Shown: positions 1 through 29,628 of the stretch, one piece after another | Numbering within the stretch: position 1 is the first letter of the stretch | Layout of the letters: the number at the start of each line of letters is the position of its first letter | From: a virus | Strand: one strand, 5' to 3' | DNA length: 29,628 nucleotides | IMG/VR virus record: IMGVR_UViG_3300005253_000281 | Span: 1 to 29,628 of that record | The notes under the pieces: generated by a model | The model's database searches: none | The model's input: only the letters and a program-made list of their open reading frames with translations | Told to the model about the DNA's origin: nothing | Translations under genes and position numbers: made by a program

Positions 1-154
1 GTTCTTCACTGTTCAGTAACCTGTCAATCTCAACTTTAACCCAGTCATCAGTTACGGATGAGTAGCCAAAGTCCCTCAAGGAGTCGGCTAGGGCTTTGCT
101 CGTTCCTTCTGGGTTATCCTTGTAGGCGCTCTTTACTTGCTCTGCTGTTATCAT
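1..154 (-). CDS. Partial small hypothetical protein (runs off left edge)
   Basis: The frame begins at ATG 154-152 and stays open to the window edge, giving 51 visible residues that start MITAEQVKSAYKDNPEG. A strong AAGGAGG lies just upstream, inside the last codons of the neighbouring gene, and only one base separates that gene's stop codon from this ATG, so the two are translationally linked. The visible part is hydrophilic and probably helical, with no Cys motif or membrane segment. I do not recognise the family; the C-terminus is outside the window. Confidence 0.7.
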   Translation of the reverse strand, partial: MITAEQVKSAYKDNPEGTSKALADSLRDFGYSSVTDDWVKVEIDRLLNSEE

Positions 155-155
155 C

Positions 156-362
156 TTAGCCTCCTTCATCTTTCATCATTAGTTCTATTAGCTCCTGAGT
201 ATCCCACCAACCACAACTGCCACAGTTCCAGTATGTCTCACCTACATCAGGCATAGAATTGTAGGTGAGTTGTCGGAAGCATATAGGGCAGTAGTGGCAG
301 GCTCCTATCAGTATGCCATCTAGAGTTACTGAGTCAGTATGGCGGTCATTGCATTCTATCAC
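156..362 (-). CDS. Small zinc-ribbon protein
   Basis: This is a 68-residue protein with Cys at 22, 25 and 28 (CHYCPIC) and a second pair at 47 and 50 (CGSC). The CxxC...CxxC pattern is typical of a zinc ribbon, which usually supports protein or nucleic-acid contacts. The start is GTG at 362-360, whose first G is the last base of the upstream gene's TAG, so translation is probably coupled. No enzymatic motif is visible. It belongs to the leftward transcription unit from the promoter at 790-761. The specific function is unknown. Confidence 0.75.
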   Translation of the reverse strand: MIECNDRHTDSVTLDGILIGACHYCPICFRQLTYNSMPDVGETYWNCGSCGWWDTQELIELMMKDEGG

Positions 363-733
363 TAGTTGCTCTCAGCATTCTTACGGGCTGTTCTACACTC
401 GTAATAGGGCTCCTCGCCTTTCAAATCCTTCTGCTCTATCAATCCGCTAACTATCTTTAGTGCCATAAGAGGCTCCATTCCCATTAGCATCTTCTTAACT
501 GTTCCTTGCATACCTTTGAGAAGTTCTGACACTACTGGGTAGTCTGCTGCTACTGAGGCTACTAATAAGCAGTGGAAGTCCTCGGCTGCTGAGTATAGTA
601 CTACGCCCTCTGACTCGCCAGTGACTATCAGTCCTTCTGCCACAACTGCTATAAATATCTCAAAGTCTTTAGTGCGTCCATCTGCATAGGTTATGGTTAG
701 CTTTACTGGTTGATGCTCGGTGTTGCTCTCCAT
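362..733 (-). CDS. Hypothetical 123-residue protein, first gene of a leftward unit
   Basis: The ATG at 733 has an excellent SD (TAAGGAGGTG) and is the first gene behind the promoter at 790-761, with a predicted leader of about 20 bases. The N-terminal half (residues 9-60) looks like alternating beta strands (KLTITYADGRTKDFEIF), and the rest is mostly helical with hydrophobic stretches but no clear membrane segment. There is no recognisable catalytic motif. It overlaps the following zinc-ribbon gene by one base. I do not recognise the family. Confidence 0.8.
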   Translation of the reverse strand: MESNTEHQPVKLTITYADGRTKDFEIFIAVVAEGLIVTGESEGVVLYSAAEDFHCLLVASVAADYPVVSELLKGMQGTVKKMLMGMEPLMALKIVSGLIEQKDLKGEEPYYECRTARKNAESN

Positions 734-760
734 TAGTAGTCACCTCCTTAGTAGCATTAA

Positions 761-790
761 ATTATACCATATAGTAGGGTTAGTTGTCAA
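761..790 (-). promoter_or_regulatory. Strong leftward sigma70-like promoter, extended -10
   Basis: On the minus strand TTGACA (790-785) is followed after 18 bases by TATAAT (766-761), preceded by TGG, so it has a TGn extended -10. The -35 sits in GGGTTGACA, a flank shared with the other leftward promoters. It drives the genes at 733 and downstream. Confidence 0.85.
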
Positions 791-792
791 CC

Positions 793-975
793 CTACCGCT
801 TGTCTCTTTGCTGGGTTAAGTCATATATCATACGCCTAGCCTCCCAGCGGTTGCTAGGCTTATCCTCAATAGGCTCCTTGATACCTAGTTGCATTGCTAG
901 TCGAGTTATTGCTACTACCTGTCTGCCTGTAGGCGGTAGTGCCCAGCTACTAGCAGGAGATATCTTTTCAGTCAT
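793..975 (-). CDS. Small protein with a DUF3072-like helical domain
   Basis: This is a 60-residue protein. Residues 13-53 follow a pattern I know from a widespread small phage and actinobacterial domain: P-x-x-x-Q (PPTGRQ), then AI-x-RLA-x-x-LGI, then an acidic/proline turn, then EAR-x-MI. That matches the DUF3072-type consensus from memory and is not a search result. The ATG overlaps the upstream stop as ATGA, so the two are probably co-translated. It is the last gene before the promoter at 790-761. Its role is unknown; a small helical interaction module is likely. Confidence 0.7.
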   Translation of the reverse strand: MTEKISPASSWALPPTGRQVVAITRLAMQLGIKEPIEDKPSNRWEARRMIYDLTQQRDKR

Positions 976-1145
976 AATTCTTTAACTTTAAACTCAGTAT
1001 CATATAGAGTGCCGCAACCTATTAGCTCGTTGAACTCGTCTTCCAAGTGCTCCTGAATCTCTTTCTCCGACAAGCCCGATAGTCCTGCCTCATCTAGTTC
1101 TTCTTCAGTATGCGAGATAGTTAAACTCAAGCTATACTCTTTCAT
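972..1145 (-). CDS. Small acidic hypothetical protein (57 residues)
   Basis: The frame runs from ATG 1145-1143 to TGA 974-972 and encodes 57 residues, beginning MKEYSLSLTISHTEEELD. A good SD (AAGGAGGCAC) precedes it and it overlaps the next gene as ATGA. The product is strongly acidic with one central Cys, probably one short strand plus helices. It resembles the many small acidic phage proteins that bind host factors, but nothing in it identifies a target. It is below usual gene-calling size limits but has clear translation signals. Confidence 0.7.
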   Translation of the reverse strand: MKEYSLSLTISHTEEELDEAGLSGLSEKEIQEHLEDEFNELIGCGTLYDTEFKVKEL

Positions 1146-1155
1146 AAGTGCCTCC

Positions 1156-1359: not shown

Positions 1360-1522
1360 ATACTTCCTTCATTGATAAGTACCAAGGTGGCGGGTCAGGC
1401 TTATGGTTAGCTATAGCATTAGCACAAGCGCAGGAGTACATAGCACAGTGCCCGAGGACACCTGTGTTGCTATCCCAGTTCCAGTGAGAGCAGCTGTAAC
1501 AGTATAGTTCAGTGTAACTCAT
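1334..1522 (-). CDS. Small Cys-rich zinc-binding protein (62 residues)
   Basis: The start is set at ATG 1522-1520, which overlaps the last codons of the upstream gene. A longer open frame upstream lies inside that gene and has no SD. The protein has Cys at 8 and 11 (CYSC) and at 26, 31 and 33 (CAMYSCAC), giving a probable structural zinc site, plus a Pro-rich stretch (KPDPPPWYL) near residue 45. No catalytic residues are evident. It sits in a run of small zinc-binding genes. The function is unknown. Confidence 0.7.
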   Translation of the reverse strand: MSYTELYCYSCSHWNWDSNTGVLGHCAMYSCACANAIANHKPDPPPWYLSMKEVYEEQDEVS

Positions 1523-6916: not shown

Positions 6917-7486
6917 ATGACAACTACTGAAATAGGACCTACAACTGAGCTACCTCCAGAAGTATCCGCAGCAACTACACTCATACCTTACCGCAAGGAC
7001 GATAATAGAGCTATGTATTTAGGCTATATGGCTTGCGGATTCTCTGATGAGGAAGCACTGTTCGTATTAGGACTGGATAGGAGCTGGCTGAAGGAAGTTA
7101 GACAGGACGGCACCTTCTCTAATATGGAAGAACGTATGCCTGAGCTTCGCAAGGAACTGTCCAGAGAGTATACTGAATTAGACTTCTACCGTAACTTCCG
7201 TATGGTACTGGAGAAAGACCATCTTATACTTCGTAAGAGCCTTGGGATGGTGCTAGTGAGGGATGAGGATACAGGCGAGATGGTGCCTGAGGAGCTAAGC
7301 ATATATGACCATCAGTATCTGCTACGTCTCCGCAGTGCCTATACTCCTCAGCAACTACAACTATTAGAAGCTGTTACTAGTAGCTCTGAGAGTGGCTTTA
7401 ACTTTGTTAAGTGGATGAAGGATAATCAGGAGGTTGTGGAGGTTAGTAGAACTGACAAAGTAGTAATTAAGAGCAAGGATGGCTAG
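6917..7486 (+). CDS. Candidate terminase small subunit
   Basis: This 189-residue protein is the first gene of the packaging module, 415 bases upstream of the large terminase. Residues 36-62 (YMACGFSDEEALFVLGLD) fit the helix-turn-helix of small terminases (aGxsxxEAxxxLGl...W). A central helical stretch (about 70-150) would serve oligomerisation. In packaging phages this subunit recognises viral DNA and controls the large subunit. The assignment rests on position, length and the helix-turn-helix pattern, not on a strong signature. It is preceded by promoter copy 1 and SD TAGGAG. Confidence 0.65.
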   Translation: MTTTEIGPTTELPPEVSAATTLIPYRKDDNRAMYLGYMACGFSDEEALFVLGLDRSWLKEVRQDGTFSNMEERMPELRKELSREYTELDFYRNFRMVLEKDHLILRKSLGMVLVRDEDTGEMVPEELSIYDHQYLLRLRSAYTPQQLQLLEAVTSSSESGFNFVKWMKDNQEVVEVSRTDKVVIKSKDG

Positions 7487-7901: not shown

Positions 7902-9590
7902 TTGGCAGTTCAGACACAAGATGAAGCACTAAGAATGATGTTCTCTGACAGACGCCTTACCTTAAGCACTCTGTTAGAGATAGAAGATAAGAATCGCCAG
8001 TTAGTTCCTCTAACTCCTAATCCTATACAAGATGACGTCATAGCTAACTCTAGCTGGCGAGATATCTATGTAAAGCCTGGGCAGGTAGGATTTACCTCTA
8101 TCATAGTTGGTGACTTCTACATAGACAACATTACAGTAAATGGCACTGTGTCTGTTATCATAAGCTATGATGAGTTCTCTGCTCAGCGCCAAGTATTAAA
8201 GGCAAAAAGATACCATCGGAGTCTTGAGCGTAAGATTCCTACTATTCCTAGGCTTGACCATAAGTCTGCCACCGAGCTCAGCTGGGAGGATAAGAATACA
8301 GGCTTCTACTCAGTAATGTATATATTCTCAGCCAGAAGTTATATGCTTGGTAGAGGAGAAACCATACATAACTTACTGTTGGATGAGTACGCCTTTTGGC
8401 CTTTGGGTACGCATGAAGCAGTATTTGCCTCTGCTGTTCAACGAGTTCCTCTTAAGGTAGGAACTAAAATCCGCATTGGTTCGACTGCTAATGGCGAGGA
8501 CAATCCTTTCTGTGATATGTATAGAGCAGCTAAGGAAGGTACTGTCATAGGCAAGTCTGTCTACAGGCACCACTTCTATCCTTGGTTTATTCATCCTGAG
8601 TATATTATGTATCCTGATGACCACTTCTGCCTTGATGGGGATGATGTTGACCCGCTATCTAACCTTCAGTCAGATGAGATTATGCTAATGAATCTTATCG
8701 CTACTACGCAGAATCTTGATGAGAAGATGTCTATGGCTAAACTTCGCTGGAGGAGATATAAGAGAGCTGAAATGGCTTCTATGCGTAGAGCAGGAGATAC
8801 TATGTTTATCTTCCCGCAGGAGTATCCTGAGGATGACGAAACCTGCTTTATGACTGCTGGAGACCAAGCCTACAGCGCAGACATCATAACTGACAAGGTT
8901 CATAAATGCATGCCAGCTCCTATTCATAAGGATATTGTAGCAGTTGATAAGGTAACTAAGACTACCATATCTGCTACCTTGGATATCTGGCATGATAGAG
9001 AAGATAATCTAGGCTATCTGATTAGCATTGACCCAGGTAAGGGTAAGATATCAGAATCAGTAGGTCATGTGTGGAGATTCGCTGAAGGCTATAGGACTAA
9101 GGAGGGTGAGGAAATACCTCCGACAATGCAGCACTGCGCTACCTTAGCAGGCATGTATGATGAGTGGGAAATGGCTGAGCTGATGAAGGAAGTAGCTCAC
9201 TATTACAATGGCGGAGTTATCTGCCCTGAAGACAATTTAGACATTGTAAGTCATCTTAGGGACTACCCTGACCTCTACTGGAGGGAGGACGTTAGGTCAG
9301 GTAAGTTTGGTAAGGTTGTAGGCTGGCAGACTAACGTTAGCACTAAGCCTTATATGATAACTGAAGTTAATAGACACTTGAACGATATTGACTGTCAAGA
9401 TATACGCTTCTGGTCTCAGTGTAAGAACATCCGTAGAAACTCTATGGTTAAGAGTGGTATAATGGTAGTAGGAGCAGACGACCACCACGACGCAGGAGCC
9501 ATAGCAATAGTGTGCAGGGATGCTATGCCTATTGCTAGAGGCTATGTAGGTAATACTACTGAAGGCGGCTGGGATGAGAAATGGGGGTAG
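7902..9590 (+). CDS. terL: Terminase large subunit (ATPase and nuclease)
   Basis: This 562-residue motor pumps DNA into the prohead and cuts it. The ATPase domain shows a variant Walker A at 58-65 (KPGQVGFT), Walker B at 158-162 (LLLDE) and a coupling motif GSTANG at 193-198. The linker EYPEDDETCFMTAG (307-320) is typical of large terminases. The RNase H-like nuclease has candidate metal ligands D377 (SIDPG), E443 (CPEDN) and D526/D527/D530 (ADDHHDAG). The start is TTG 7902 behind AGAGG; an internal ATG at residue 12 is an alternative. Length is normal for the family. Confidence 0.93.
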   Translation: MAVQTQDEALRMMFSDRRLTLSTLLEIEDKNRQLVPLTPNPIQDDVIANSSWRDIYVKPGQVGFTSIIVGDFYIDNITVNGTVSVIISYDEFSAQRQVLKAKRYHRSLERKIPTIPRLDHKSATELSWEDKNTGFYSVMYIFSARSYMLGRGETIHNLLLDEYAFWPLGTHEAVFASAVQRVPLKVGTKIRIGSTANGEDNPFCDMYRAAKEGTVIGKSVYRHHFYPWFIHPEYIMYPDDHFCLDGDDVDPLSNLQSDEIMLMNLIATTQNLDEKMSMAKLRWRRYKRAEMASMRRAGDTMFIFPQEYPEDDETCFMTAGDQAYSADIITDKVHKCMPAPIHKDIVAVDKVTKTTISATLDIWHDREDNLGYLISIDPGKGKISESVGHVWRFAEGYRTKEGEEIPPTMQHCATLAGMYDEWEMAELMKEVAHYYNGGVICPEDNLDIVSHLRDYPDLYWREDVRSGKFGKVVGWQTNVSTKPYMITEVNRHLNDIDCQDIRFWSQCKNIRRNSMVKSGIMVVGADDHHDAGAIAIVCRDAMPIARGYVGNTTEGGWDEKWG

Positions 9591-9754: not shown

Positions 9755-9915
9755 GCTTGTCTAATGTTGAGTTAGATAGGCTAGCTGCTGATACAGGGTG
9801 CAGTATACATAACGATATAGAGCATGGCTTATCTATTAGGAAACTAGCGAAGCTGTTTAGTATAGGCGAGGGAGCTGTGGGGGGTACTTTGAAAAGAGGA
9901 AAATATGATGGGTAA
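9751..9915 (+). CDS. Small helix-turn-helix protein (54 residues)
   Basis: The start is TTG 9751-9753, 8 bases after AAGGAG, overlapping the upstream stop. The core DIEHGLSIRKLAKLFSIGEG is a plausible helix-turn-helix (g-SIRKLAKLFSIGEGAV), so DNA binding is likely. It ends inside the start of the next gene (11-base overlap). It could be a late regulator or a DNA-recognition partner of the packaging complex; no family is recognised. The non-ATG start lowers certainty. Confidence 0.6.
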   Translation: MSLSNVELDRLAADTGCSIHNDIEHGLSIRKLAKLFSIGEGAVGGTLKRGKYDG

Positions 9916-10279
9916 TGACTTGCCTAACCATAAGGAAGCTCAGCGTAGATGGTATGATAGTAAAGGTAGAGATCGCTATAGAGTGAAGTCGCTGGGAGGA
10001 AAGTATCTTCCTCCTGGAGAGGAAAAGAGACCATATACTGGCAAGTGTGAGCTGTGCGGAGCGACTTATGAAGATGATAAGAGTAAGTTTCATTATCATC
10101 ATTGGATAGATGAAGAGCCTACTATAGGTATCTGGGTCTGTGTCAAGTGTCATTGGATGATAGAAGCGGTAGATACAGGTTTACTTCAGAAGTATGAAGA
10201 GTTGAAGCCGTTGATTGAGAAGGAGTGCGCTATGAAAATGCTCGGCAGATTTGGTCTGTTGGAGGTAGTTAATGGGTAA
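9905..10279 (+). CDS. HNH-like zinc nuclease
   Basis: This 124-residue protein has C48/C51 (CELC), a His cluster HYHHW at 63-67, and C79/C82/H83 (CVKCH), the treble-clef layout of HNH and endonuclease VII-like enzymes. The N-terminus (KEAQRRWYDSKGRDRY) is the basic helix common in that group. The usual final Asn/His of the HNH helix is not obvious, so activity is not assured. HNH proteins beside terminase and portal genes often assist cos-type DNA cutting during packaging. The second Met (9908) is an alternative start. Confidence 0.75.
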   Translation: MMGNDLPNHKEAQRRWYDSKGRDRYRVKSLGGKYLPPGEEKRPYTGKCELCGATYEDDKSKFHYHHWIDEEPTIGIWVCVKCHWMIEAVDTGLLQKYEELKPLIEKECAMKMLGRFGLLEVVNG

Positions 10280-12041
10280 GAACGCTACTGACATTATAAC
10301 TAGATGCACTGAATTAAAAAATTTCTGGAGTCCGAGAGATGAAAAAATGAAACAGTGGTATCGGATGATAGAGATGGTTGATGAACTGAAAACTGAGAAG
10401 ATGGAGTCATTTGTAGGTAATGACCCTAGGTCACTGTATAACTTGGTACTTCATCTACTTGATGCTGACATACCTCATAGGATTAAGGAGTATAGCTCTA
10501 CTGACCCTGAGATGACTGCTGCTGTAGCTAGTGTTAGTGGATTCTTCAAAACTGCTTGGAAGGATGTGCATAGAACCTTCCGCAAGACTAACCCTAGGCA
10601 GAGTCTCCAACGTACTTCACTAGGTTTTATGCTAGCAACTGGTTGGTATGCTGATTTTGCTCTGGTTACTGATGATGGCTCTAGATGCTATGATGAGCCT
10701 TGGAATCCTATTGAAGTTTATCCTATGTGGGATGCTATGCTAGGGCTCAGTGAAGTAGCTCATATATTCAGAATCAGTAGTACTCAGGCTACTACTATGG
10801 CTAAGAAGAATGGTTGGGCATTAGGAGGTAACTACCGTCAGTGGAGAGCTACTGTTGGCAGAAACATTACTATCTACGACTACTGGTGGATAGAGATATC
10901 TGATGAGTTTCCTTTCAATAAGACGGTATGGAACGCGATAGTAGTAGATACTGTACTAGTGAAGTTTGGTCAGACTAGGTTCCGCAGAATGCCCATATAC
11001 ATAGCTCCAGTAGGTGGGCTACCTGATATGGGGGCTTTGACTGAGGGAGTACTGCCTACATATTCATCTACCCTTAAGTTACACACTCAAGATGCTGGCG
11101 TAGATAGATGGAAGGCTGAGATTGGGCAGGCTATTATAGCAACCAATGAGAACATCTACCGCACCTGGAATAAGTGGTGGAGCTTCAGTCTACAACTACT
11201 GAGGGATACTGCTCAGCCTAGAATCTTTGAACGAAGCAGAAGTGGCAAGGCTATAGTCAAGCCTGAGGATGTCTTCCGCAGAGGAGCTATATTCAGAGGA
11301 GGTCCTGATGACTCCGTAGACTTTATAGGCACTCCACCTATACCTCTAGAGCTCAGGAGTACTCAACTTGACTTGGAAGCTATGATGCAACGAGGTGGTG
11401 TCAGTTGGTCTATGTTTGGTAATGTTCAAGGTCAGATAACTGCCTCTGTCATGAGTCAGATAGCTGCCTCTGCTAATCAGGTAATTAAGCCTTTCCATCA
11501 GGCTTTCATTAACCGCTATGAGGATATAGACAATGACTGGTTTGCAGATATCAGAGAGCGTGGAGTTAAGCCTTATGGCTGGAAGTATCCGTCAGTACTG
11601 CCAGATGATGTATTTGTAAGTGCTGACTATGACATTGAAATACCTGGAGACCTAGTTCAGAGGGCAACTACTGCTCGTATGCTTGACCCTGACTTCAGAC
11701 TAAGCTATAGCTATGTTATAAAGAAGCTGTTCCCTGATATTGAAGACCATATGCAGGAGAGGGCTCAGGTTAGAGCTGACCAGGCTGAGATGCACCCGTC
11801 TAATGCCTTGATAGCTCTTATCCAATACTATCGTAGGCAGGCAGCTTATCTGGCTAAGATAGGAGATAGCGGAACTGCCAGACTTTATGAGTCAGTAGCT
11901 GATGCTACCCTAGCTATGCTGACTGCAGAGACTCAGCAGCAACAACAGCCTGAGCAGGTAGCTATGAGAGCTGGCAGACCCGAGACTACACCTCAGCGAG
12001 CTCAAATACCAGAGAGAGCAGCTGAGACAGGAGGACAATAA
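10272..12041 (+). CDS. Portal protein
   Basis: This is a 589-residue protein directly after the packaging genes, in the usual slot and size range for portals, the dodecameric ring at the DNA-entry vertex. The N-terminal third is alpha/beta with an aromatic-rich segment (IYDYWWIEI near 210). A long helical region around 360-430 includes VMSQIAASANQVIKPF, typical of portal stem/crown helices, and the C-terminus is Gln-rich. It overlaps the HNH-like gene by 8 bases and shares one base with the giant gene that follows. Assignment is by position and general sequence style; no catalytic motif exists for this family. Confidence 0.8.
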   Translation: MGKNATDIITRCTELKNFWSPRDEKMKQWYRMIEMVDELKTEKMESFVGNDPRSLYNLVLHLLDADIPHRIKEYSSTDPEMTAAVASVSGFFKTAWKDVHRTFRKTNPRQSLQRTSLGFMLATGWYADFALVTDDGSRCYDEPWNPIEVYPMWDAMLGLSEVAHIFRISSTQATTMAKKNGWALGGNYRQWRATVGRNITIYDYWWIEISDEFPFNKTVWNAIVVDTVLVKFGQTRFRRMPIYIAPVGGLPDMGALTEGVLPTYSSTLKLHTQDAGVDRWKAEIGQAIIATNENIYRTWNKWWSFSLQLLRDTAQPRIFERSRSGKAIVKPEDVFRRGAIFRGGPDDSVDFIGTPPIPLELRSTQLDLEAMMQRGGVSWSMFGNVQGQITASVMSQIAASANQVIKPFHQAFINRYEDIDNDWFADIRERGVKPYGWKYPSVLPDDVFVSADYDIEIPGDLVQRATTARMLDPDFRLSYSYVIKKLFPDIEDHMQERAQVRADQAEMHPSNALIALIQYYRRQAAYLAKIGDSGTARLYESVADATLAMLTAETQQQQQPEQVAMRAGRPETTPQRAQIPERAAETGGQ

Positions 12042-15000
12042 TGGTAGAACCACCACAGTTACCTCCGCCTCCTCAGCCTCCAGAGCCTTTTCCTGGCTTT
12101 GGCAGAGAGCTAGAGCAGTTAGGTATATCTCAGTTTAAGGCTCAAACCAGGCTTATGGAAACTGAGAAGAAAAGGGCTACTGCTGAGCAGGCTTTTATCC
12201 TTGGGGGTAGAACTGGGTTTCTTGCTCAGTTCTTTAGACCAGCTAGGAAGACTCCTCTGCCTGGTGGAGGTCTTTCTGTTTTTCCAGTTGCAGTTCCTCT
12301 TGAGATTCTTAAGCAGGAACTACTCCAAGCTCAGCAGGAGTATGACTTAGCTCTTCAGGAGATGAAGTCTAACCGCTGGCGTCAGGAGGTAATGATAACT
12401 CTGCCAAACTATCTGTCTCTGCCAGATTATAAGATACAGAGCCCTGAGGATATACTTAACTATATGCCTCTTGATTCTATGACCGAAGCAGATACAACTT
12501 GGCTTAATCTGACTTATGACCGTCTGAAGCACCTATCTAATGTGCTGCCAGAAGGCTTCACTGGGGATGCTATGGAAGCCCAGACTAAGGTGCTGAACGA
12601 AGTCCTTACCGCTCCTAAACTGGAACTGAGAGGTATTCATAACCTTACTGTAGAGGAGCTAGCTAAGTCTTTCCAGTTCGGGGTAGCTGAGCTTCCACAA
12701 GGTATGTCTGAGGAAGATGTTAGGAGTATCCTTAGCCAGATGGACTTGCAGGAAGAGGAACTGAAGGATGTTAAGATCTGGTTGACTGAGAGAGCGATAA
12801 GCTGGGAAATAGAGTCAGGTAAACTGAATCTTCTCCGTGCTGGACTAGTACTACCAGAAGAGCCAGAGCTGACTCCTTGGGAGTTTACCAAGCTAGCGGC
12901 TACTCAGCCCATGATGGCAACAGTAGAGCTACTGGATAAGTACTGGAATATGCTTCCTAGACCAGCTGTAGCCGCATCTATTATAGGTTTCCATAGGCTA
13001 CTTAATCTTGGTGCCGCAACTTCCGAAGGTACTGCGGCTGCTAGACTGGAAGAGGGATATGAGTTCTACCGCTCTATGGGTTTGAGTAGCTGGGATTCAT
13101 ATGCTAAGTCCTTTAATGAGTGGGACGCTCCTTGGTGGTTAAAGATAGCTGCTGAATCCGCCTTTGACCCTCTTATGTATATTGGCTTTGGGCTAACAAC
13201 TGCTGCTGCATACAAAATAGGAACTGGGCTTACTCGGGTCGGTCTTAGGACTGTAGGAACTAGGATAGGTCCTTGGGTAGGAGCCTTTCATGGAGGCTAT
13301 GTTGCTGGTGCAGATGCTGTGTTCAAGGCTGGAGTGCAAGTATTCTTAGCTCCTATCAAAGGCTCATTCTGGCTAACTGGCGTAGGTTATCAGATTCCTA
13401 AAACCGCTACTCAGATGGCTAGGAACTTCGCCCGCAAGAGCATAATGGACTTCAACGCAGTATTAGGCAGAACCTTTCCTGAAGTACGCAACCTTAAAGG
13501 ATTGACGGTAAAGGACTTGACTGGCACTGCTGACAACGTTATCAATCAGGCTCTGGCTAGACCTATGGAGGGACATGACCTGGCAGTTAGAGCTGGGGCT
13601 AATCTGTTGGAGTTCAACTACATAGATGACCTAGCAGCTAGGAAGATGGTAGCTGGCGTTAGAGAGCCTATCTTAGGTCCTACTGGAGAAGTAATATCTG
13701 AAGTTGGCGGAGAGATAGCATTTGATACTGTCCGCCTAGCTCGCTTTAACAATGAAGTTCTCAATATGTTCTCTGGTCAAGGTGAGAGGATAACAGCTGG
13801 TAAGATAATAGCTGACTTAGGACAGGAAGCTACTGAGGAGGCGGTTACTAATGTATCTGCCAAGCTAGTTACCTTTAGAGAGAAGATAGCTAAAGCTGCT
13901 CTAGTTGCTGTCAAGGGGGATGCTCCTCAGGATGTTATACTCAACGTCTTTAACCGCTTGGAAGGTATCCGCTTCAGCAATATCCATAGTCCTATGACTC
14001 CTCATATGACTCAGGCTGGGAGGTCTGTTAGCTGGGTTACTAGGGTGGCAGACAAGATGCTGTATTCTACTCAGCTAGTAGCTTTAGAGAGGCGGCTAGT
14101 AATGCCTCTAGCTAGATGGAATCTGCTGTTCACTAACTTTGGTCCTTATAACTTCACTGAGAATATGGGTAGGAGCTTCTTAGGAGGCGGTGAGATAATG
14201 TATCCTAAGAGTTACAGTGGGGTAGCAGAAACTAATAGGCTATTCAAAGGACTGGCTGGAGCTCCTTATGAACTTCAACTAATGGAGCGAGGTGAGGTAC
14301 GATTAGCTCAAGCTATGATAGACCCTAAGACTGGCAAGACAGCAGTGTTTCAGAGAGGTAAAGTACCATTTGTAACTAGGGAAGTAACCATACCTGAGAA
14401 GGTTCCTTTCTTAGGTGGTAAGACTATAGGTGCCAAGATTAACTTAGCTGGGCGAGACCACTACCTAGCATCCTTCCAAGACGCTTACGATATGTGGGGG
14501 CACTTCAACTCTAAGCAGGTAGCCTTTGATTATCAGACTCACTATATGAAGTCTCTGGCTGAGATAGCTCCAGATAATATGAAAGGGCTAGTGGATAATG
14601 TAGCTAATCATAGAGCAGAACTAGATAATATATCTGCTATATCTAGTAAAGATGCTAGGGATATAGAACGAGTACTGCTACAGGATTCTACTGTAGGACC
14701 TGAGGCTGTCAGAGCTCACGCTGACCTGGATGTACTGGAGTTTGAGCGGAGGCAGGTTAGCAAAGAACTCTACAAGACTATGGATAGGATGACTGATGTC
14801 CGTGCTATTACTAAGGTTGGTATTAGAGATGAAGTGCTAGGCGGCAGTATCTTCAAAGACATAGATGGCAGGATAGCAGCTTATGTAGAATCCGAGAGGG
14901 AGCTAAGCCTTATCAGCCTGAAGAATCAGATGGATGTGCTGAAGAAGGAAGCTGATACTTTCTTAGCTAACCCTCCTCGTAACCTTAATGAGTTCCTTGG

Positions 15001-18000
15001 AGATATGCAGAACATGACTGCTATGGTAGAGGGCACTGGGGAGAGAATACACGACTATAGGAAGCTAACCGAGTTGAGGAAAGCTAGGCTATCTCCAGCT
15101 GACTTTGATGACTTTGAAGTAGGCTCAGCTAAGCTACTGGCTGAGTTTATGGAGACAAGTGAAGAGCAGCTTACTAAGATAATGAATCAGTTAGGAGAGA
15201 ATGCTAGAACCGTTGTAACTACTAATCTGGAACCTGAGGAGATGACTAGACTGCTCCAGAGTAGGATAAGATATCTAGCTCCAAATGAGTACTTAAGGGG
15301 TCTGGGTAAGGCTCCTAGGGGTAGAGAGTTTGGGTTGGCAGGGCAATTCTTTACTAGGAGCCTTGACGATGCTGGATACTACGGACCTTCTTATATTAGA
15401 GCGACCATTAAGCCTAAGAACTCTTTGGACTGGCGAGGAGATGCTCAGTCGTTAGCAGACTCTATTGGCATAGGCAAGGAGTTTGGCGAGCTTGGAGGTT
15501 CTGGGCATCCGACTGCTGAGGAGTTTCTGATAAATAAAATAAAGTCTTCCGAGCAAGGCTTTGATGCTTTTAGATTGTATGCGGACGCGCCTGGTGAGGA
15601 ACTCATAGTAGTTCTGGACGATTCTATAATTAATATATCCAAGAGATTCACGATAGGTACTGGAGAGTCAGTTTTGAATGAAGTTCAACTAGCTCGCCTT
15701 ACCGACCTTGACTCTATCTCTCGCCTTGAACTTGAGAACATCCTAGCAACCCGCAACAAGGTAGCTGGGATAGAAGCAATCATACCTACAACTCCTAAAG
15801 GCAAAAGGAATGAAAGGTTCTGGCAGCAACAGCGAGCTCAGAAGGCTATCATCTGGGATGAGTATGATGGCAATGCTAGGAAGTTTAAGAGCCTTAGACT
15901 AAGAGCTAGCCGTAACTTTCTTGCATCAGTAGACAAACCAGTATTCACTCCTGACTTCGTTCCAGAAGTAACTGCTGAGCTTACGCCTAACCATCTAGCC
16001 TATCTGTATGGAGCAACTGGGGATGACCTATATAGAGGACTTACTAGAGTGCAGCATCACATAACTATACGACCAAGAGAAGACTTCATCTTACATACTG
16101 CAGAACAAGCAGACGCTTATGCTGCTAAGTTTAGCAAGACAGCATCTGATATGGGCTTTACTGATGAGGCTATAGGAGAAGTCTATGACCAGCTCTGGAG
16201 GAATCAAGGCATAGAGCCTAGTATCCTGACTCCTGATAGTCCTACAGTAATGCAGCTAGAGGAGATAAGGCAGGAGCTGACAAGGTTACATGGTAGTATG
16301 AAGATTCCTGATTCTGATTTAGTTAAGTGGCGTCAGTATGTCAACTCAGTAGCAGATGATGTAGAGAAACTGCCAATGTATAAGGTAGTTACTACTGCTG
16401 AAGCTCAGCTGGAGAGATTAACTGGTATAAAGGCTGATTATGCTAAAGTCGCAGTCCAGTCTGCTAGGCAGATAGCCAGAGATGCTGGAGTGGATATTAA
16501 GAATACTTCTATTATAGGTAGCTTCTTAGGGAAGAAAGCTCCAAAGGATATAGATATTCTTATCACAGTTGATGATGCTTCCAAACTACTAAACAAGAGG
16601 ATTAAAGCTCCTGAGTTCGGTGGAAGGCCTATAGACATATTTGTAACTGACGGCAAGGTTAAGTATGCCACTGTTCAGGTGTCTCCTCAGGACGTTGTGT
16701 TTAAGCCTAGGGACTTCGGTATTCCTACCGACTTACCGAAAGCTGCTCCAGCAGGAGGTACTACTGACTGGTGGTCTAACAAAGAATCTGCTATGACTAG
16801 GGCTCGTGAGCAGCACGCCTTATCCTTCCCTACCTATGACGATTCTAATGTAATAGATGAAGCAATGCGAGCTATCTTCCCCTTCTGGAACTATGAACTA
16901 TTCCGCTGGCGCTGGATACCCAGGACTTGGATGAGGACTCCTGGGACTATGACAGGACTAGCCCGCTACGTTAACTATACTGACCAAGGTTATCTACCTA
17001 TACCTGCTACTGACCTTCAGATAAACATCCTTAGAGGTTCTGTCTGGATGGGTGGTCTCCGCTCTATGTATCTCCGTGACTTCCCTGAATACTACGATGC
17101 TATGCCAGGTATGGAACTTATCGACTATATCGGCAGAATGGGCTTCTTTCCGGGCTTTCATGTTATGGCTCCTATTGTGCTCTTTGGAGCTACTGTAGGA
17201 GGCAAGCCTGAGCTGGCTCAGTTAGCTCCTGCTTGGATGAGAACTACCTTATCAGCTATGAGAGCTCTATCTCCTGAACATATAGGAGCAGTATTAGAGT
17301 TCATCTACCCCGACCGCTTCCGTGACTTTCAGACTATGTTAACTCTAGCAGGACAAGGCTATGATGCTGATGAAATCTGGCGGAAGAAGAAGCAGAACCA
17401 ACCTATAACTGAGGAGGAAGAGAAGCTCTGGCTACAAGCAGTGAATAAGGTTGACGGTGTTAAAGGTATCCTTATGCAGCAGACTGGTCTATTCAGAATC
17501 CGTCCCGATGAGTATACTCAGATAAGAAAATCTATGCGCCTAGCTATTGAGGAGGCTACTGGAGTACCTGTATCTACTCAGGAGCATATTGACAGGCTGT
17601 ATCCAGTAACAGGTAAGAGGTTCTCTGACTACTATCGCCTAGATATACTACAGCAAAAGCTCCTCTATGAGTTTGAAACTTACCGTAGATGGCAGGGAGT
17701 TACTACTCCGCTCTATCCTTCTAGCTGGCAGGTGCTGGATGTAAAGATAAGAGACTACTATCAAGAGGTAGAGCGAGTATATGAAGATGCTAGACACTTA
17801 GGAACTTATGAGGAAGGAGAGCTAGTCCGTCCCAGTATGGTAGAGATTAACCGCCAACTGGTAGATGGTGTGATAGGTCCTGACCAGTGGAGAGCTATGC
17901 GTAGTGATATACAAGGTAGTCTAGCAGAAGCTGTCAGAGTGTTAGGAGAATCTCCAGCCTATAAGGATGTGCCTAAGACCTTTGAAGAGCGTGCTCTAAT

Positions 18001-18577
18001 GCTAGAGGAGAGAGGTATTACTACTCCTACTCAAGGTGCTGACCAAGAGCTGCTCTACTACTACTTTGAGCTCAAGCCTGAGTATAAGTGGAGCTGGGAA
18101 GCTCAGCGCATGGAGAGGGACTTTGATACCTACTACACTCATATTGATATTCTGTTAGAGTCTCTGGATGCTGCTCACCGAGAACGCCTGATACAGAGAA
18201 TACAGTTTGACTGGACTCCTATGGAGAGGCTCTACTGGCAGATTAGCCGAGAGCATATCAGACCATACAGGAATCTCCGTAGCATAGTATTATCTGAGTA
18301 TACTCCTGAGGAGGTTCAACAGATACGTCGCTTTGAAGTAGCTCGTGGCGTTGAGCGGGAGGAGCTACAGCAGGTGTTAGGTCCTGACGGTCTGAAGCTT
18401 ATAAGTGGCTTTGCTAAACGTCTCCGAGAAGCTCGTCAGCGCTTCAGAATCCTTGACCCTCTGACAGATGCATGGCTTAACTTCTTTGGCACTACAGATA
18501 AGTTAATGAGTGCTCAGGCTAAGGAAATATATGATGGACTTCTGAAGCAGTTCTTAACTTCGGAGATGGTTGAGTAA
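12041..18577 (+). CDS. Giant multidomain virion-associated (polyvalent) protein
   Basis: This is a 2178-residue protein between portal and scaffold. It begins with a Pro-rich tail (PPQLPPPPQPPEPFPGFG), then long helical regions. Near 360-450 are Gly/Ala-rich semi-hydrophobic segments. Around 1085-1200, GQFFTRSLDDAGYYG followed by IKPKNSLDW and PGEELIVVLDD resembles the STS and E-x-E strands of ADP-ribosyltransferases (weak). Around 1485-1545, IIGSFLGKKAPKDIDILI with G1493, S1494, D1503, D1505 and a later D1532 (RPIDIFV) matches a pol-beta-type nucleotidyltransferase. The C-terminal 600 residues are helical with a hydrophobic patch (FHVMAPIVLFGATVGG). It is probably packaged and ejected with DNA. 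Confidence 0.75.
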   Translation: MVEPPQLPPPPQPPEPFPGFGRELEQLGISQFKAQTRLMETEKKRATAEQAFILGGRTGFLAQFFRPARKTPLPGGGLSVFPVAVPLEILKQELLQAQQEYDLALQEMKSNRWRQEVMITLPNYLSLPDYKIQSPEDILNYMPLDSMTEADTTWLNLTYDRLKHLSNVLPEGFTGDAMEAQTKVLNEVLTAPKLELRGIHNLTVEELAKSFQFGVAELPQGMSEEDVRSILSQMDLQEEELKDVKIWLTERAISWEIESGKLNLLRAGLVLPEEPELTPWEFTKLAATQPMMATVELLDKYWNMLPRPAVAASIIGFHRLLNLGAATSEGTAAARLEEGYEFYRSMGLSSWDSYAKSFNEWDAPWWLKIAAESAFDPLMYIGFGLTTAAAYKIGTGLTRVGLRTVGTRIGPWVGAFHGGYVAGADAVFKAGVQVFLAPIKGSFWLTGVGYQIPKTATQMARNFARKSIMDFNAVLGRTFPEVRNLKGLTVKDLTGTADNVINQALARPMEGHDLAVRAGANLLEFNYIDDLAARKMVAGVREPILGPTGEVISEVGGEIAFDTVRLARFNNEVLNMFSGQGERITAGKIIADLGQEATEEAVTNVSAKLVTFREKIAKAALVAVKGDAPQDVILNVFNRLEGIRFSNIHSPMTPHMTQAGRSVSWVTRVADKMLYSTQLVALERRLVMPLARWNLLFTNFGPYNFTENMGRSFLGGGEIMYPKSYSGVAETNRLFKGLAGAPYELQLMERGEVRLAQAMIDPKTGKTAVFQRGKVPFVTREVTIPEKVPFLGGKTIGAKINLAGRDHYLASFQDAYDMWGHFNSKQVAFDYQTHYMKSLAEIAPDNMKGLVDNVANHRAELDNISAISSKDARDIERVLLQDSTVGPEAVRAHADLDVLEFERRQVSKELYKTMDRMTDVRAITKVGIRDEVLGGSIFKDIDGRIAAYVESERELSLISLKNQMDVLKKEADTFLANPPRNLNEFLGDMQNMTAMVEGTGERIHDYRKLTELRKARLSPADFDDFEVGSAKLLAEFMETSEEQLTKIMNQLGENARTVVTTNLEPEEMTRLLQSRIRYLAPNEYLRGLGKAPRGREFGLAGQFFTRSLDDAGYYGPSYIRATIKPKNSLDWRGDAQSLADSIGIGKEFGELGGSGHPTAEEFLINKIKSSEQGFDAFRLYADAPGEELIVVLDDSIINISKRFTIGTGESVLNEVQLARLTDLDSISRLELENILATRNKVAGIEAIIPTTPKGKRNERFWQQQRAQKAIIWDEYDGNARKFKSLRLRASRNFLASVDKPVFTPDFVPEVTAELTPNHLAYLYGATGDDLYRGLTRVQHHITIRPREDFILHTAEQADAYAAKFSKTASDMGFTDEAIGEVYDQLWRNQGIEPSILTPDSPTVMQLEEIRQELTRLHGSMKIPDSDLVKWRQYVNSVADDVEKLPMYKVVTTAEAQLERLTGIKADYAKVAVQSARQIARDAGVDIKNTSIIGSFLGKKAPKDIDILITVDDASKLLNKRIKAPEFGGRPIDIFVTDGKVKYATVQVSPQDVVFKPRDFGIPTDLPKAAPAGGTTDWWSNKESAMTRAREQHALSFPTYDDSNVIDEAMRAIFPFWNYELFRWRWIPRTWMRTPGTMTGLARYVNYTDQGYLPIPATDLQINILRGSVWMGGLRSMYLRDFPEYYDAMPGMELIDYIGRMGFFPGFHVMAPIVLFGATVGGKPELAQLAPAWMRTTLSAMRALSPEHIGAVLEFIYPDRFRDFQTMLTLAGQGYDADEIWRKKKQNQPITEEEEKLWLQAVNKVDGVKGILMQQTGLFRIRPDEYTQIRKSMRLAIEEATGVPVSTQEHIDRLYPVTGKRFSDYYRLDILQQKLLYEFETYRRWQGVTTPLYPSSWQVLDVKIRDYYQEVERVYEDARHLGTYEEGELVRPSMVEINRQLVDGVIGPDQWRAMRSDIQGSLAEAVRVLGESPAYKDVPKTFEERALMLEERGITTPTQGADQELLYYYFELKPEYKWSWEAQRMERDFDTYYTHIDILLESLDAAHRERLIQRIQFDWTPMERLYWQISREHIRPYRNLRSIVLSEYTPEEVQQIRRFEVARGVEREELQQVLGPDGLKLISGFAKRLREARQRFRILDPLTDAWLNFFGTTDKLMSAQAKEIYDGLLKQFLTSEMVE

Positions 18578-19354: not shown

Positions 19355-20434
19355 ATGGCTGATTCAGGCGGGCATTGGAGTAACTTAGCAGCTGCGCAAA
19401 AGTTAACCCAGTCCATGAAAATTCCTGGTGTCTTTGAGGAAGACATCAAACGCAACAATCCTATTGATAGGCTTACCGTAGGTCAGGCGGCTCATAGCGG
19501 ACTCAAGATAGAGTGGTTGAGAGAGCAACCAGCTGCAGTAGCTTCTATAGAAGCTGCAGTAAATGATATAAGTATTGGTGAGCAACTATCTTGGACTGAG
19601 GATGTAGACTACGATGAGAAGGAATCTACTCTTCGCACTTGCTATATCCAACGGAAGCTTGACCACTATGTCCAAGGTATCTACGGAACCTACAACAACT
19701 ACGAAGCACGGAAGCTTCTGGAGTCTGAGAAAGGACTCAGGCGGAAGATTGGAGCTAGGATAATCTATGCTGATAATACCTATACCTCCACTAAGCAGTT
19801 CGATGGTATTCATGCACTAGCGGCAGAACACGGTTCTCCATATACTGCTGGCAGTAGCAACGACCCTAAGAACATAGATAATGGAGATGTAGGGCTTAGT
19901 CTCGCCTTCCTAAGAATAATGATAGACGAGATGAAGCAAGGTGTAGATGAGCTCTGGGCACCTTTTGAAGTTATCCGCAGAATGGATGCTGCCTATCAGG
20001 AACGAGGATTTCTACAAGCAGCTGCCAATACTACTAACCTTGCCTTCCTAACCCTAGGCTACAATGACCTCGGCAAGCGAGTACTGTTCTGGGACGGTCT
20101 TCCTATCATCAGGACTGACTACCTCGTAGCTGAGGACGACGACACTGGAACTGGTGGAAGCTCAGATGCACGAGCACTCTATGTCTCTGGTGATAAGGTC
20201 TACTCCATCTTCGGTATCAAGCATGGTAACGTGATGAACCAGGAGCCTGGTCTAACCTACGCCTACGGTGGAACTGAAGGTCTTGGTGATCTTTACAAGC
20301 TAGTAAGATTTCCTGAACTGGAAGACTACGATGCTGGCGGAATTAGGCTGGTTAACTACTCCACCTTACTGCTTGGCTCTAGCTTCTGCCTAGGAAGAAT
20401 CTTTGACATCCAAGACGTGGCGATAACTATTTAG
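19355..20434 (+). CDS. Major capsid protein
   Basis: This 359-residue protein follows the scaffold gene by 25 bases. Its size, the mixed alpha/beta content, a long central helix (LSLAFLRIMIDEMKQG, near 180) and aromatic beta segments with a late Gly-rich loop (TYAYGGTEGLGDLY) fit an HK97-fold coat protein. The SD AAAGGAGC lies 10 bases before the ATG. Codons here appear more selective (AAC, TAC, ATC endings) than in neighbours, as expected for the most abundant virion protein. No direct family signature is seen; the call rests on position, length and style. Confidence 0.85.
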   Translation: MADSGGHWSNLAAAQKLTQSMKIPGVFEEDIKRNNPIDRLTVGQAAHSGLKIEWLREQPAAVASIEAAVNDISIGEQLSWTEDVDYDEKESTLRTCYIQRKLDHYVQGIYGTYNNYEARKLLESEKGLRRKIGARIIYADNTYTSTKQFDGIHALAAEHGSPYTAGSSNDPKNIDNGDVGLSLAFLRIMIDEMKQGVDELWAPFEVIRRMDAAYQERGFLQAAANTTNLAFLTLGYNDLGKRVLFWDGLPIIRTDYLVAEDDDTGTGGSSDARALYVSGDKVYSIFGIKHGNVMNQEPGLTYAYGGTEGLGDLYKLVRFPELEDYDAGGIRLVNYSTLLLGSSFCLGRIFDIQDVAITI

Positions 20435-20516: not shown

Positions 20517-21359
20517 ATGTCTATAGAGTACGATATTAGAAGGAGTAATGGTAGAGTACTATATCTACCCGCTAATCCTGAGGATGCTAGTCTGAAGAGC
20601 ATAGCCTTTCCCGACGTCTATGTAGCTGATACTCTTCAGAAGTATCCTCTCGGAACTGAATACGATGAGGGTACTGGTAGGGATTTCCGCTATGCTCAGA
20701 ACGATAACAGTGGTAATACCCTAGTTCCTGGCAGAATGGTTCAGCAGAACTCTGAGGATGGTCAGATGACTGGTCTTGTTCCAGCTGCTGCTTCCATAGG
20801 TGACACAACTGTTACCCTCACTATCGGAACTGGAGCGATTGTAGCCAATCAGTTTGAGAACGGATGGCTATTCGTAGAAGGACCAGCTGGCGCAAGTGCA
20901 GAGAAAGGCTTTACGTATCAGATAGAGAGTCATCCTGCTGCGTCTGGCAGTGCTACCTGTGTCTTCACTCTGAGGCGGGCGCTGATTAAGGGTATTAGTA
21001 CTGCTAGGAGAGTCAGTGTCTATTCTAATCCTATTGGTAGTAGGAAGTCAACTAGCCGCGGCTGCAAGGTAGTTCCTGCAGGTGGTCAGACTTTCATTGC
21101 TGTCGGGATTCCCGCTTGCCGTGTGACTCAGGCTCAATTCTTCTGGGCTCAGTATAAGGGTATCTGTGGCTTTGAGACTGATGGCTCTACAGCTATGGTC
21201 AAGGGACAGAGAGTTAGTATTGGCGGAGCCTCTGACGGCTGTGGTATGGTATCTGGAGGCAATACAGACCAGATATTTGGAGTATGTATCACTGCTGGAG
21301 GTTTTAGCCGCCTAAGTCTGGTGGCTCTTGACCTGCCAGAAATAGCTGGCGGTGGTTAG
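20517..21359 (+). CDS. Probable capsid decoration or auxiliary structural protein
   Basis: This is a 280-residue beta-rich protein next to the capsid gene. Landmarks are LGTEYDEGTGRDFRYAQN (about 46-63), SIGDTTVTLTIGTGAIVANQ (about 93-112) and FTYQIESHPAASGSA (about 131-145). I recall this order (LGT...FRYA, a VT-rich strand with VxANQ, then Y-I-SHP) from capsid-adjacent structural proteins of many environmental phages. It probably binds the capsid surface or vertices. The SD TGGAG lies 9 bases before the ATG. A tail component is less likely given the location. Confidence 0.7.
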   Translation: MSIEYDIRRSNGRVLYLPANPEDASLKSIAFPDVYVADTLQKYPLGTEYDEGTGRDFRYAQNDNSGNTLVPGRMVQQNSEDGQMTGLVPAAASIGDTTVTLTIGTGAIVANQFENGWLFVEGPAGASAEKGFTYQIESHPAASGSATCVFTLRRALIKGISTARRVSVYSNPIGSRKSTSRGCKVVPAGGQTFIAVGIPACRVTQAQFFWAQYKGICGFETDGSTAMVKGQRVSIGGASDGCGMVSGGNTDQIFGVCITAGGFSRLSLVALDLPEIAGGG

Positions 21360-27779: not shown

Positions 27780-27886
27780 CTCCTTGGAGAGAAGAAAGAG
27801 GTGAGACCTTCGGTAGTGAGGTTATAGAGAGAATTAGGAAGAGCCCTATTATCAGGTTCTTCGGAGGTTTGTTCGGTGGGTCGTAA
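27719..27886 (+). pseudogene. Open -1 frame extending the 527-residue tail protein
   Basis: The -1 frame relative to the upstream gene is open for 55 codons with no ATG, GTG or TTG near its beginning, yet reads like protein: FEPKNLWQQLTPWREERGET, then a Ser/Glu/Arg helix and FFGGLFGGS before TAA 27886. One extra T in the TTT at 27749-27751 would join it to the upstream frame. No standard slippery heptamer is visible. It is probably the true C-terminus, displaced by an indel or a sequencing error. Confidence 0.5.
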
Positions 27887-28415
27887 GAAGACTGGCAGAC
27901 CAGTAGATGTTCCCGTCGGCTCAGGTATAGCTGTAACTGGACAGGACTTTGAGCAGAGAGCTCCTATCATACCTCCTGGCTCTGTGTCTTACATATATAG
28001 TGGTCAGTTTAGGACATCATCTAAAACTGCCAGCTTTACTCTTAGCAATGAGATGGTAGTATTAGTAGATGCCACCTCGGTTGACATAGTTATAACTTTA
28101 CCAGCCGCTTCTACTAGCACTCATAAGATATACTATATTAAGAAGGTGGATAGCACAGGGCATACGGTGACTGTAAAAGGTAATGCTACTGCTGAAACAA
28201 TAGATGGAGAGAAGTCAATAGTGATAGCATTACAGTACCAGTACATAGCTATCATCTGTGATGGCTCTGACTGGTTTATAATAGGAGGTGAGTATGTGAA
28301 GATGGAAGAGATTGTAAAGGAAGGTAATGAGACCCAAGGGAAGATACTGAACCTTCTGATACTTTTTAAGAAGGCTCTAAAGAAAATGAGTAATTTAGAT
28401 TTAAAGGAGGACTAA
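27876..28415 (+). CDS. Virion spike or fibre-type protein (179 residues)
   Basis: The start is GTG 27876, 8 bases after GGAGG. Residues 40-132 carry a well-known fibre pattern: TASFTLSNEMVVLVDATS, then ITLPAASTSTHKIYYIKK and the Thr/Val strand VTVKGNATAETIDG, then IICDGSDWFII. This beta domain caps many phage fibres. A coiled coil of about 40 residues ends the protein (KEGNETQGKILNLLILFKKA), likely for trimerisation or membrane/partner contact. It follows the tail protein on the same strand. Confidence 0.8.
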   Translation: MGRKKTGRPVDVPVGSGIAVTGQDFEQRAPIIPPGSVSYIYSGQFRTSSKTASFTLSNEMVVLVDATSVDIVITLPAASTSTHKIYYIKKVDSTGHTVTVKGNATAETIDGEKSIVIALQYQYIAIICDGSDWFIIGGEYVKMEEIVKEGNETQGKILNLLILFKKALKKMSNLDLKED

Positions 28416-28416
28416 C

Positions 28417-28965
28417 ATGGCAGACAGAATAGAAGGCACAGGTGGCATAACTGCTGAGGTAAGTAAAGAGCGACAACTGCTCACCAAAGCAATGCAGGAG
28501 ACTGAGTTTGAGTTCATCTCAGAGCTAACAGGTGAGGCATTTATATGGACTATTGAAACCTATAACTATACTGGTGCTGATACCATCCTGTCAGTAAGAA
28601 ACATCCATGCTACAAAGAAACTGCACATTCACAAGATTGTCTTACACGGAGATACTGAGACTGAGGTAGAGGTTCATGTGCCTACTTCGGATTATACCCC
28701 TACTGGCACGGCAGTGATTGGTCAGGGTCTAAACAGAAGTAAAGATGTAGATGCGACTGCTTATGCTACCGCCATCGCAGATGAGACTGGACAAGCTACC
28801 CAGGGTGATGTAATTGAGCGTAGAAGAATTAAAGTTGATACTGATATGGAGATAGCATTTGATGGCGCTTTGATACTCGCTAACAAGCAAGCTGTCGCTG
28901 TGGACTTCGTCACAGTTGGTACTGAGGCTCATGTCTCTATCTGGGGTTTCTTTAAGGAGGACTAA
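28417..28965 (+). CDS. Structural protein of the tail/fibre block (182 residues)
   Basis: The SD AAAGGAGG is strong. The protein is beta-rich throughout: EAFIWTIETYNYTGADTIL, then HIHKIVLHGDTETEVEVH and a C-terminal HVSIWGFF. I have seen this type in tail-fibre clusters of environmental phages, as a beta-sandwich of unknown role. It is neither an enzyme nor a chaperone by sequence. The stop overlaps the next start. Confidence 0.7.
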   Translation: MADRIEGTGGITAEVSKERQLLTKAMQETEFEFISELTGEAFIWTIETYNYTGADTILSVRNIHATKKLHIHKIVLHGDTETEVEVHVPTSDYTPTGTAVIGQGLNRSKDVDATAYATAIADETGQATQGDVIERRRIKVDTDMEIAFDGALILANKQAVAVDFVTVGTEAHVSIWGFFKED

Positions 28966-29348
28966 TGGTAGCTTCTAACCAATTTTGCCCATACTATAAT
29001 CTGCCCTGTCCACAAACAAACGTTGGTATTGATGGCTGTTACATGTGGGGTACAGGCTGCCCACTTAGGGCTGGTGGAGATACATATAGTAAGACCATGA
29101 CGATGGCAAACGATAGCGCAATCAGGTTTGAGACAGCAGAAAAGTCACTCAGGGATGTTATTATTATTGTTGAGACCAATCCTATGCTGTTAGGTTCAAC
29201 AGGAGTGGAAGTATTTACTGTCGCTGCCGGTGGTAGTATAGGATGGAGTAAGGTAGATATAAGCACCCTTTATTTTAAGAATGCCGGTGCAGGTAACAAT
29301 GGTAAGATTACGATATTGGCAGTGGCAGATTCAGGAGCAAGAGTATAA
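28965..29348 (+). CDS. Small protein with Cys-rich head and beta tail (127 residues)
   Basis: The N-terminus has four Cys at 8, 15, 25 and 32 (CPYYNLPC...GCYMWGTGCP), fit for two disulfides or one metal site, then Thr/Val/Ser-rich strands (VEVFTVAAGGSIGWSKV). The beta part resembles a fibre-capping domain. The gene begins at ATG 28965 in the GACTAATGG junction with the upstream gene. Base use is more relaxed than upstream (more AAA and TTT, two CCGG sites nearby), hinting at recent acquisition. Confidence 0.65.
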   Translation: MVASNQFCPYYNLPCPQTNVGIDGCYMWGTGCPLRAGGDTYSKTMTMANDSAIRFETAEKSLRDVIIIVETNPMLLGSTGVEVFTVAAGGSIGWSKVDISTLYFKNAGAGNNGKITILAVADSGARV

Positions 29349-29628
29349 TGGGTACTTATACTTTGCCCAAATATACTGATGCAGAGGCCATCTCTGCCGT
29401 GGAAGGCGAAGCTACTCTTGACCTCACAGGCGATTTATCAACACCAGGTTCACTCATATCAACGGGTGGGAGTCAAACAGGAAAATTCCTTACAGGTGCT
29501 GCTGGTAATACAGTTTTTGCTTTTAGCGGGGATAATTTCGATATAAGAGCAGGAACTGGTGGGTCATCATCTCAAAATGTTATGCGGGTTAAATCTTCTG
29601 GGGATTTTGGCATTGGAACGAATAATCC
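29348..29628 (+). CDS. Partial tail fibre or spike protein (runs off right edge)
   Basis: It starts at ATG 29348, overlapping the upstream TAA by one base. The 93 visible residues begin MGTYTLPKYTDAEAISAVEG, the same YTDAEA joint found at the end of the protein at 23171-23638. Gly/Ser/Thr-rich strands follow, ending VMRVKSSGDFGIGTNN, which is typical of fibre domains that precede a C-terminal chaperone or peptidase domain. That end lies outside the window. Confidence 0.75.
   Translation, partial: MGTYTLPKYTDAEAISAVEGEATLDLTGDLSTPGSLISTGGSQTGKFLTGAAGNTVFAFSGDNFDIRAGTGGSSSQNVMRVKSSGDFGIGTNN

Follow-up and report, generated by a model that had tools for sequence, protein, structure and literature searches.

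Near-fixed loss of GATC sites in a family of uncultivated tailed phages

Introduction

Why would almost every copy of the tetranucleotide GATC be missing from the genome of a tailed phage and from those of its relatives? The question is raised by IMG/VR record IMGVR_UViG_3300005253_000281, positions 1 to 29,628 of which constitute the window, i.e., the whole 29,628-base stretch analyzed here. To judge from its genes, the window is a fragment of the genome of an uncultivated, undescribed tailed phage (Caudoviricetes), with two hallmarks of such viruses, a terminase large subunit recognized by tblastn and a head protein matching phrog_212 (E value of 2.2e-9). The kind of phenomenon, whether phage site avoidance in general or GATC loss in particular, is already known. 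That non-temperate phages avoid the sites of Type II enzymes is established (Rusinov et al. 2018, PMC6286503), GATC being reported below expectation in each of 46 phages whose hosts encode the GATC Type IIM enzymes, and phiX174 is described as having zero GATC against about 20 expected, the addition of 20 sites lowering its mutation rate eightfold (PMC5014478). Our literature searches, judged by titles and the beginnings of abstracts, returned no paper on this family or its GATC loss, which is no proof of absence, and no phage family that combines near-fixed avoidance of one site with turnover at others.

Results

GATC is the most depleted of several palindromes in the window

A scripted count found three GATC sites in the window (9971, 12775, and 20288), exactly those read by eye in the initial annotation, which had anticipated about a hundred. 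Base content predicts 113 and a second-order Markov model built on 3-mers predicts 102, in line with that estimate, and the resulting ratio (0.03) is the lowest among all 256 4-mers of the window. In 300 synonymous-codon shuffles of the 31 called coding sequences (CDS; 24,942 bases), GATC occurred 77.7 ± 6.9 times with a minimum of 60, versus 3 in the real sequence, so neither protein sequence nor codon usage is the cause. The residual sites lie within a small HNH-like open reading frame (ORF) at 9905-10279 (site at 9971-9974; the HNH label was given by eye), a large ORF encoding 2,178 residues (12775-12778), and the major capsid protein gene (20288-20291).

The 4-mer counts over the window and the shuffles of its CDS revealed further depleted words that the initial annotation does not contain. 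Observed over expected counts are 4/65 for GGCC, 3/39 for CCGG, and 4/18 for CGCG, and CATG (33/108) and TCGA (12/34) are also low. Real versus shuffled counts in the CDS are 3 versus 47.6 for GGCC, 3 versus 32.3 for CCGG, 3 versus 29.1 for CGCG, 10 versus 64.8 for TCGA, and 29 versus 60.9 for CATG; CTAG, TATA, ATAT, and TTAA occur about as often as expected and AGCT more often. GATC is thus the extreme of a palindrome-specific pattern.

GATC depletion is conserved across the family while other sites turn over

To chart the family, we queried IMG/VR with the terminase (7 loci), a capsid alignment (69 loci), and an alignment of a conserved methylase (best 80 of 121 relatives). To these we added 36 whole or large records (23 + 13), and dereplication by shared 80-mers left 101 contigs, among which separate fragments of one virus may still count as distinct. 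For each site, contigs with fewer than eight expected copies were omitted (1 of 101 for GATC, more for rarer words), and a contig was called depleted below 0.25 of the expected count.

By this measure, GATC is depleted in 92 of 100 contigs, 91 of them below 0.1 of expectation, and the depletion extends to relatives that are only about 33% identical in a gene they have in common. Other sites follow at a distance: GGCC in 41/100, CCGG in 52/85, CGCG in 24/40, TCGA in 17/81, GTAC in 8/101, and CATG in 4/101. Of the 29 contigs that reach 35 kb, 27 fall below 0.1 for GATC and 10 have none at all. The eight exceptions (observed/expected) are G044 (79/129), which serves as an outgroup, G045 (84/218), G041 (41/73), L196 (53/76), L241 (17/26), L248 (22/30), L250 (26/51), and L050 (10/18). 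Avoidance of GTAC was seen as a single-lineage trait in relatives G055 (L287-L288; 0/130) and G053 (L284-L286; 2/112).

The 21 depleted large records retain 58 GATC sites in total. Fifty-one lie in CDS, where about 2,640 would be expected, and the deficit there holds for all three codon phases. The residual sites occur in core, accessory, and intergenic DNA and in 13 of 16 flanking contexts (a raw tally without per-context expectation). Their density per 10 kb is 0.70 in core genes, 0.84 in genes of intermediate frequency, 0.66 in rare genes, and 0.40 between genes; hence, they are not concentrated in accessory genes.

Two quick trees with weak forks, on which change counts do not separate gain from loss, summarize the history of these sites. 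The capsid tree (49 rows, one of them unscored for GATC because fewer than eight sites are expected) has 3 state changes for GATC, 11 for GGCC, 8 for CCGG, and 5 for TCGA, with 43 of the 48 scored rows depleted in GATC. The methylase tree (73 rows; 7 of the 80 loci were left out, 6 not entered and 1 whose translation contains a stop) has 4 changes for GATC, 16 for GGCC, 12 for TCGA, and 9 for CCGG, and 69 of its 73 rows are GATC depleted. With only five and four exceptions, respectively, many GATC changes are impossible; the message of the trees is that exceptions are few, not the low number of changes as such. G045 is the one large member besides the outgroup in which GATC has partly returned, and it has done so along the entire genome, while its capsid-tree neighbor L054 has 1 site of 27 expected. 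This return shows that the pressure can be lifted.

A conserved viral methylase

The methylase that served as a search query (in the relatives, e.g., at locus L017:16422-17222) is a permuted protein of the PF01555 type. N6_N4 DNA methylase family PF01555 is matched in partial, permuted form at 47.8 and 55 bits, against a curated cutoff of 26.7, and the catalytic motifs run in the order I (GTGT) to IV (SPPY or SPQY). In the 73 tree rows, motif IV reads SPPY in 51 and SPQY in 15, with 7 rows giving no pattern match. SPQY occurs in close relatives of the window and in two separate rows (L190 and L201), and this substitution may change or abolish activity. Sequence matches are mostly DNA methylases, and the best PDB folds for the structural model (mean pLDDT of 88.6) are the tRNA methylases Trm11/Trm14, so that the fold search did not separate a DNA from a tRNA substrate.

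Two further methylase candidates were considered. A viral Dam-type enzyme (PF02086) was matched in 1 of 45 records, inside the PF01555-type gene itself. G045 carries an extra NPPY methylase-like ORF (L119:13288-13785), an attractive candidate for the cause of its GATC return; a homologue, however, occurs in L234, which is depleted (1/24), and the contigs reached through the gene are mixed, with 5 of 24 depleted.

An unrelated phage avoids the same set of sites

As a background, 26 viral contigs were drawn by an arbitrary 16-mer, a small sample of short pieces from which 2 with too few expected sites were dropped; none of the remaining 24 had GATC below 0.25. An unrelated methylase-like gene led to 24 contigs of other viruses, of which 5 were GATC depleted. 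One of these 24 is part of G047 (L298-L304; IMGVR_UViG_3300033149_001989), an unrelated phage of 134 kb from sample 3300033149, which is also the source of many family members. G047 has 1 GATC of 377 expected, 14/177 GGCC, 0/134 CCGG, and 1/77 CGCG, and it is the one contig of the 39 background contigs scored in which GATC, GGCC, and CCGG are jointly depleted. It also encodes 26 predicted tRNAs, Ile(tat) among them.

That two unrelated phages avoid the same set speaks for a host-imposed cause, an argument drawn from one phage and with a shared host as a candidate only. In G047 and its seven terminase relatives (68 to 81% identity), two of eight contigs, including G047, are GATC depleted; in that lineage, GATC avoidance therefore toggles like a restriction site.

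Clues to the hosts

Apparently complete relatives measure 40 to 44 kb, and 13 of the 23 large records carry direct terminal repeats of 35 to 127 bases. In addition to what the window contains, the relatives encode a replication module, made up of the PF01555-type methylase together with a family A DNA polymerase, a pair of AAA ATPases, an RNase H-like protein, a Cas4-like nuclease, and a helix-hairpin-helix protein. Genes are preceded by strong AGGAG/GGAGG signals. Codon usage is skewed toward AGA/AGG and ATA, the latter supplying 42 to 53% of Ile codons in core genes of the groups tabulated, and relative G020 carries a CCA-ended tRNA-Ile with anticodon TAT (L140:3273-3349). Such a tRNA is unusual among bacteria. 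The AGGAG/GGAGG signals, the family A polymerase, and the CCA-ended tRNA-Ile of this one relative together point to bacteria as the hosts. No integrase is among the first 25 of the 30 families listed for the relatives' proteins, and the family is likely lytic.

The source samples of the family are presumably anoxic sediments. A search of 84,980 prokaryote genomes yielded 40 pattern matches with the capsid alignment and 27 with the terminase alignment, with no relative and no provirus among them. Megablast of window bases 1-25000 against phages and plasmids found no match, nor did tblastn against phages with the capsid, the portal-position protein described below, an AAA_25 protein, or the Cas4-like protein. 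With the family A polymerase, and likewise with a RecA-like protein from G047, many phages were matched whose hosts include Actinobacteria and Firmicutes, among others; identities of about 22 to 32% among the matches listed are too low to name a host. The ATA and AGA/AGG codon usage had suggested viruses of Bathyarchaeia as kin, a reading we dropped since the described ones differ in gene content. Among them, the 'Fuxiviridae' and 'Kunpengviridae' (PMC10848311) resemble the family in being tailed viruses of a sediment clade that encode Cas4-like proteins and stand-alone DNA methylases; the Kunpengvirus is described with a family B polymerase, whereas the family studied here has a family A polymerase, AGGAG/GGAGG signals, and a CCA-ended tRNA.

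Two relatives deserve mention for other features. In G063 (IMGVR_UViG_3300031586_000089; 10537-12270, minus strand), the polymerase A match is split inside a single 808-residue frame, which suggests an intein-like insertion. One of 93 aligned proteins, from one relative, is a strong match to the Thoeris inhibitor Tad6 (5.6e-59) and would point to Thoeris in the host of that relative.

Other genes of the window

All genes described here lie on the plus strand. The terminase large subunit (562 residues; 7902-9590) was recognized by tblastn to annotated phage terminases (best E value of 4e-23 at 25% identity), has 7 relatives in IMG/VR at 64 to 80% identity, and gave no match at 1e-3 in Pfam and PHROG scans. 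The major head (capsid) protein (19355-20434), the phrog_212 'major head protein' mentioned above, has 69 IMG/VR relatives. Upstream of the terminase gene, a conserved protein of 189 residues (6917-7486; 22/23 large records) occupies a putative small-terminase position. Downstream of it, a conserved protein of 589 residues (10272-12041; 23/23) sits at the usual portal position, a label given by position only since it has no Pfam, PHROG, or phage tblastn match. The conserved protein of 2,178 residues (12041-18577) has no Pfam match along its full length; it is found in 22/23 records, where homologues reach 2,721 residues. A conserved protein of 280 residues is encoded downstream of the capsid gene (20517-21359; 23/23). 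Apart from the capsid protein, none of the scanned window proteins matched a Pfam or PHROG family at 1e-3.

Discussion

In our view, this pattern is most probably the outcome of Type II restriction at GATC in the hosts, acting as a selective force on the whole family over a long time. The hosts would carry a Type II-like restriction activity at GATC, phage genomes bearing the site would be cut on entry, and changes removing it, mostly synonymous, would be favored and kept. Restriction fits because palindromes are the words affected, all codon phases are low, other four-base palindromes cut by Type II enzymes are depleted as well, and G047 avoids the same set. Avoidance of GGCC, CCGG, CGCG, TCGA, CATG, and GTAC is confined to some lineages, as expected if hosts differ in further enzymes. 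The initial annotation had proposed long selection by a GATC-cutting restriction system; the sequence pattern agrees with that proposal, from which we infer the enzyme, its specificity, and cutting as the selective force. The other option of the initial annotation, a host system that senses adenine methylation at the site, may apply instead.

Several observations weigh against this explanation. Genes for restriction are as a rule gained and lost readily, and the other avoided sites of the family behave accordingly; an ordinary mobile system would not predict the constancy of GATC depletion, which reaches 92 of 100 contigs. Neither host nor enzyme was found, with no relative in the 84,980 genomes searched. 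Moreover, most of the remaining four-base palindromes of the window are mildly depleted too, and general palindrome avoidance may account for a share of the GATC signal.

The constancy of GATC avoidance, the part least well explained by mobile restriction, raises two alternatives, a fixed host trait and host mismatch repair. Under the first, which we advance tentatively, the hosts would share an old, vertically kept GATC-directed system that predates the diversification of the family rather than a mobile cassette. Candidates would be a GATC nuclease fixed in these hosts or, outside Gammaproteobacteria, a housekeeping system that resembles MutH or senses methylation.

A variant of restriction at GATC, doubtful in our judgment, combines DpnI-like Type IIM enzymes, which act on methylated GATC, with MboI/DpnII-like enzymes in different hosts. 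Both states of the site would then be unsafe and the site itself would have to go, which would explain both the near-absolute avoidance and why a phage could not simply adopt a GATC methylase. The 46 phages of Type IIM hosts, all reported with GATC below expectation (PMC6286503), are in keeping with this variant, but sequence alone does not tell it from plain Type II restriction.

Mismatch repair in the host, the second alternative raised by the constancy of GATC, is somewhat less credible still. A Dam/MutH-like system would nick unmethylated GATC in fast-replicating phage DNA and thereby select against the site. This would agree with the GATC loss of phiX174 and its reported effect on mutation rate (PMC5014478), and GATC avoidance is indeed far steadier than that of the other sites, as would fit housekeeping better than a mobile system. 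However, GATC is not avoided by itself, GGCC, CCGG, and CGCG being strongly depleted too, and the unrelated G047 avoids GATC along with these same three sites. The AGA/AGG and ATA codon usage is also unlike that of MutH-bearing Gammaproteobacteria, and, to our knowledge, MutH is limited to part of that class.

A cause within the virus is improbable. A GATC-cutting nuclease of the phage, or the conserved methylase if it made GATC harmful, would require self-protection by site loss. The methylase is indeed present in 20 of 23 large records, missing from the non-depleted outgroup G044, and found at loci of which 75 of 80 are GATC depleted. However, G045, L196, L241, L248, and L250 carry it without depletion. 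More broadly, when called ORFs were clustered by BLAST, no cluster with members in 8 or more of the 21 depleted large records tracked depletion: clusters that reach 18 to 21 of these records are shared with G044 or G045, and clusters that both of these exceptions lack reach at most 11 of 21.

A compositional or codon-usage artefact, suggested by the several low GC-rich palindromes and the skewed codon usage, was already refuted by the Markov (3 versus 102) and shuffle (3 versus 77.7 ± 6.9) comparisons, and close relatives with alike codon usage nevertheless differ in GGCC, CCGG, and TCGA depletion.

Selection by restriction at GATC would place the family beside the phages surveyed by Rusinov et al. 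(PMC6286503), with which it shares a tailed double-stranded DNA phage nature, a palindromic site far below expectation genome-wide, and several palindromes affected. It differs from those phages as reported in that its enzyme is one we infer, in the near-absolute degree of depletion, and in the persistence of that depletion through a divergent family (92 of 100 contigs) whose other avoided sites come and go. As in phiX174 and enterobacterial phages (PMC5014478), GATC is missing, with about 20 sites expected there and 100 and more here. Unlike the loss in phiX174, which that report links to Dam/MutH, the loss here is accompanied by avoidance of GGCC, CCGG, and CGCG, and nothing indicates a MutH host.

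Site avoidance is usually patchy because restriction systems come and go, and near-fixed GATC avoidance across a divergent family is therefore an unusual feature. The turnover in the G047 lineage represents the usual behavior of a restriction site and sets off the constancy of this family. The family thus offers a natural experiment in which one host pressure would have stayed constant through most of its history, and the few members with returning GATC mark where that pressure was lifted. For a widespread family of uncultivated phages, the avoided set is a clue to the host, and identifying the system in that host would show whether restriction can become a trait fixed throughout a lineage.

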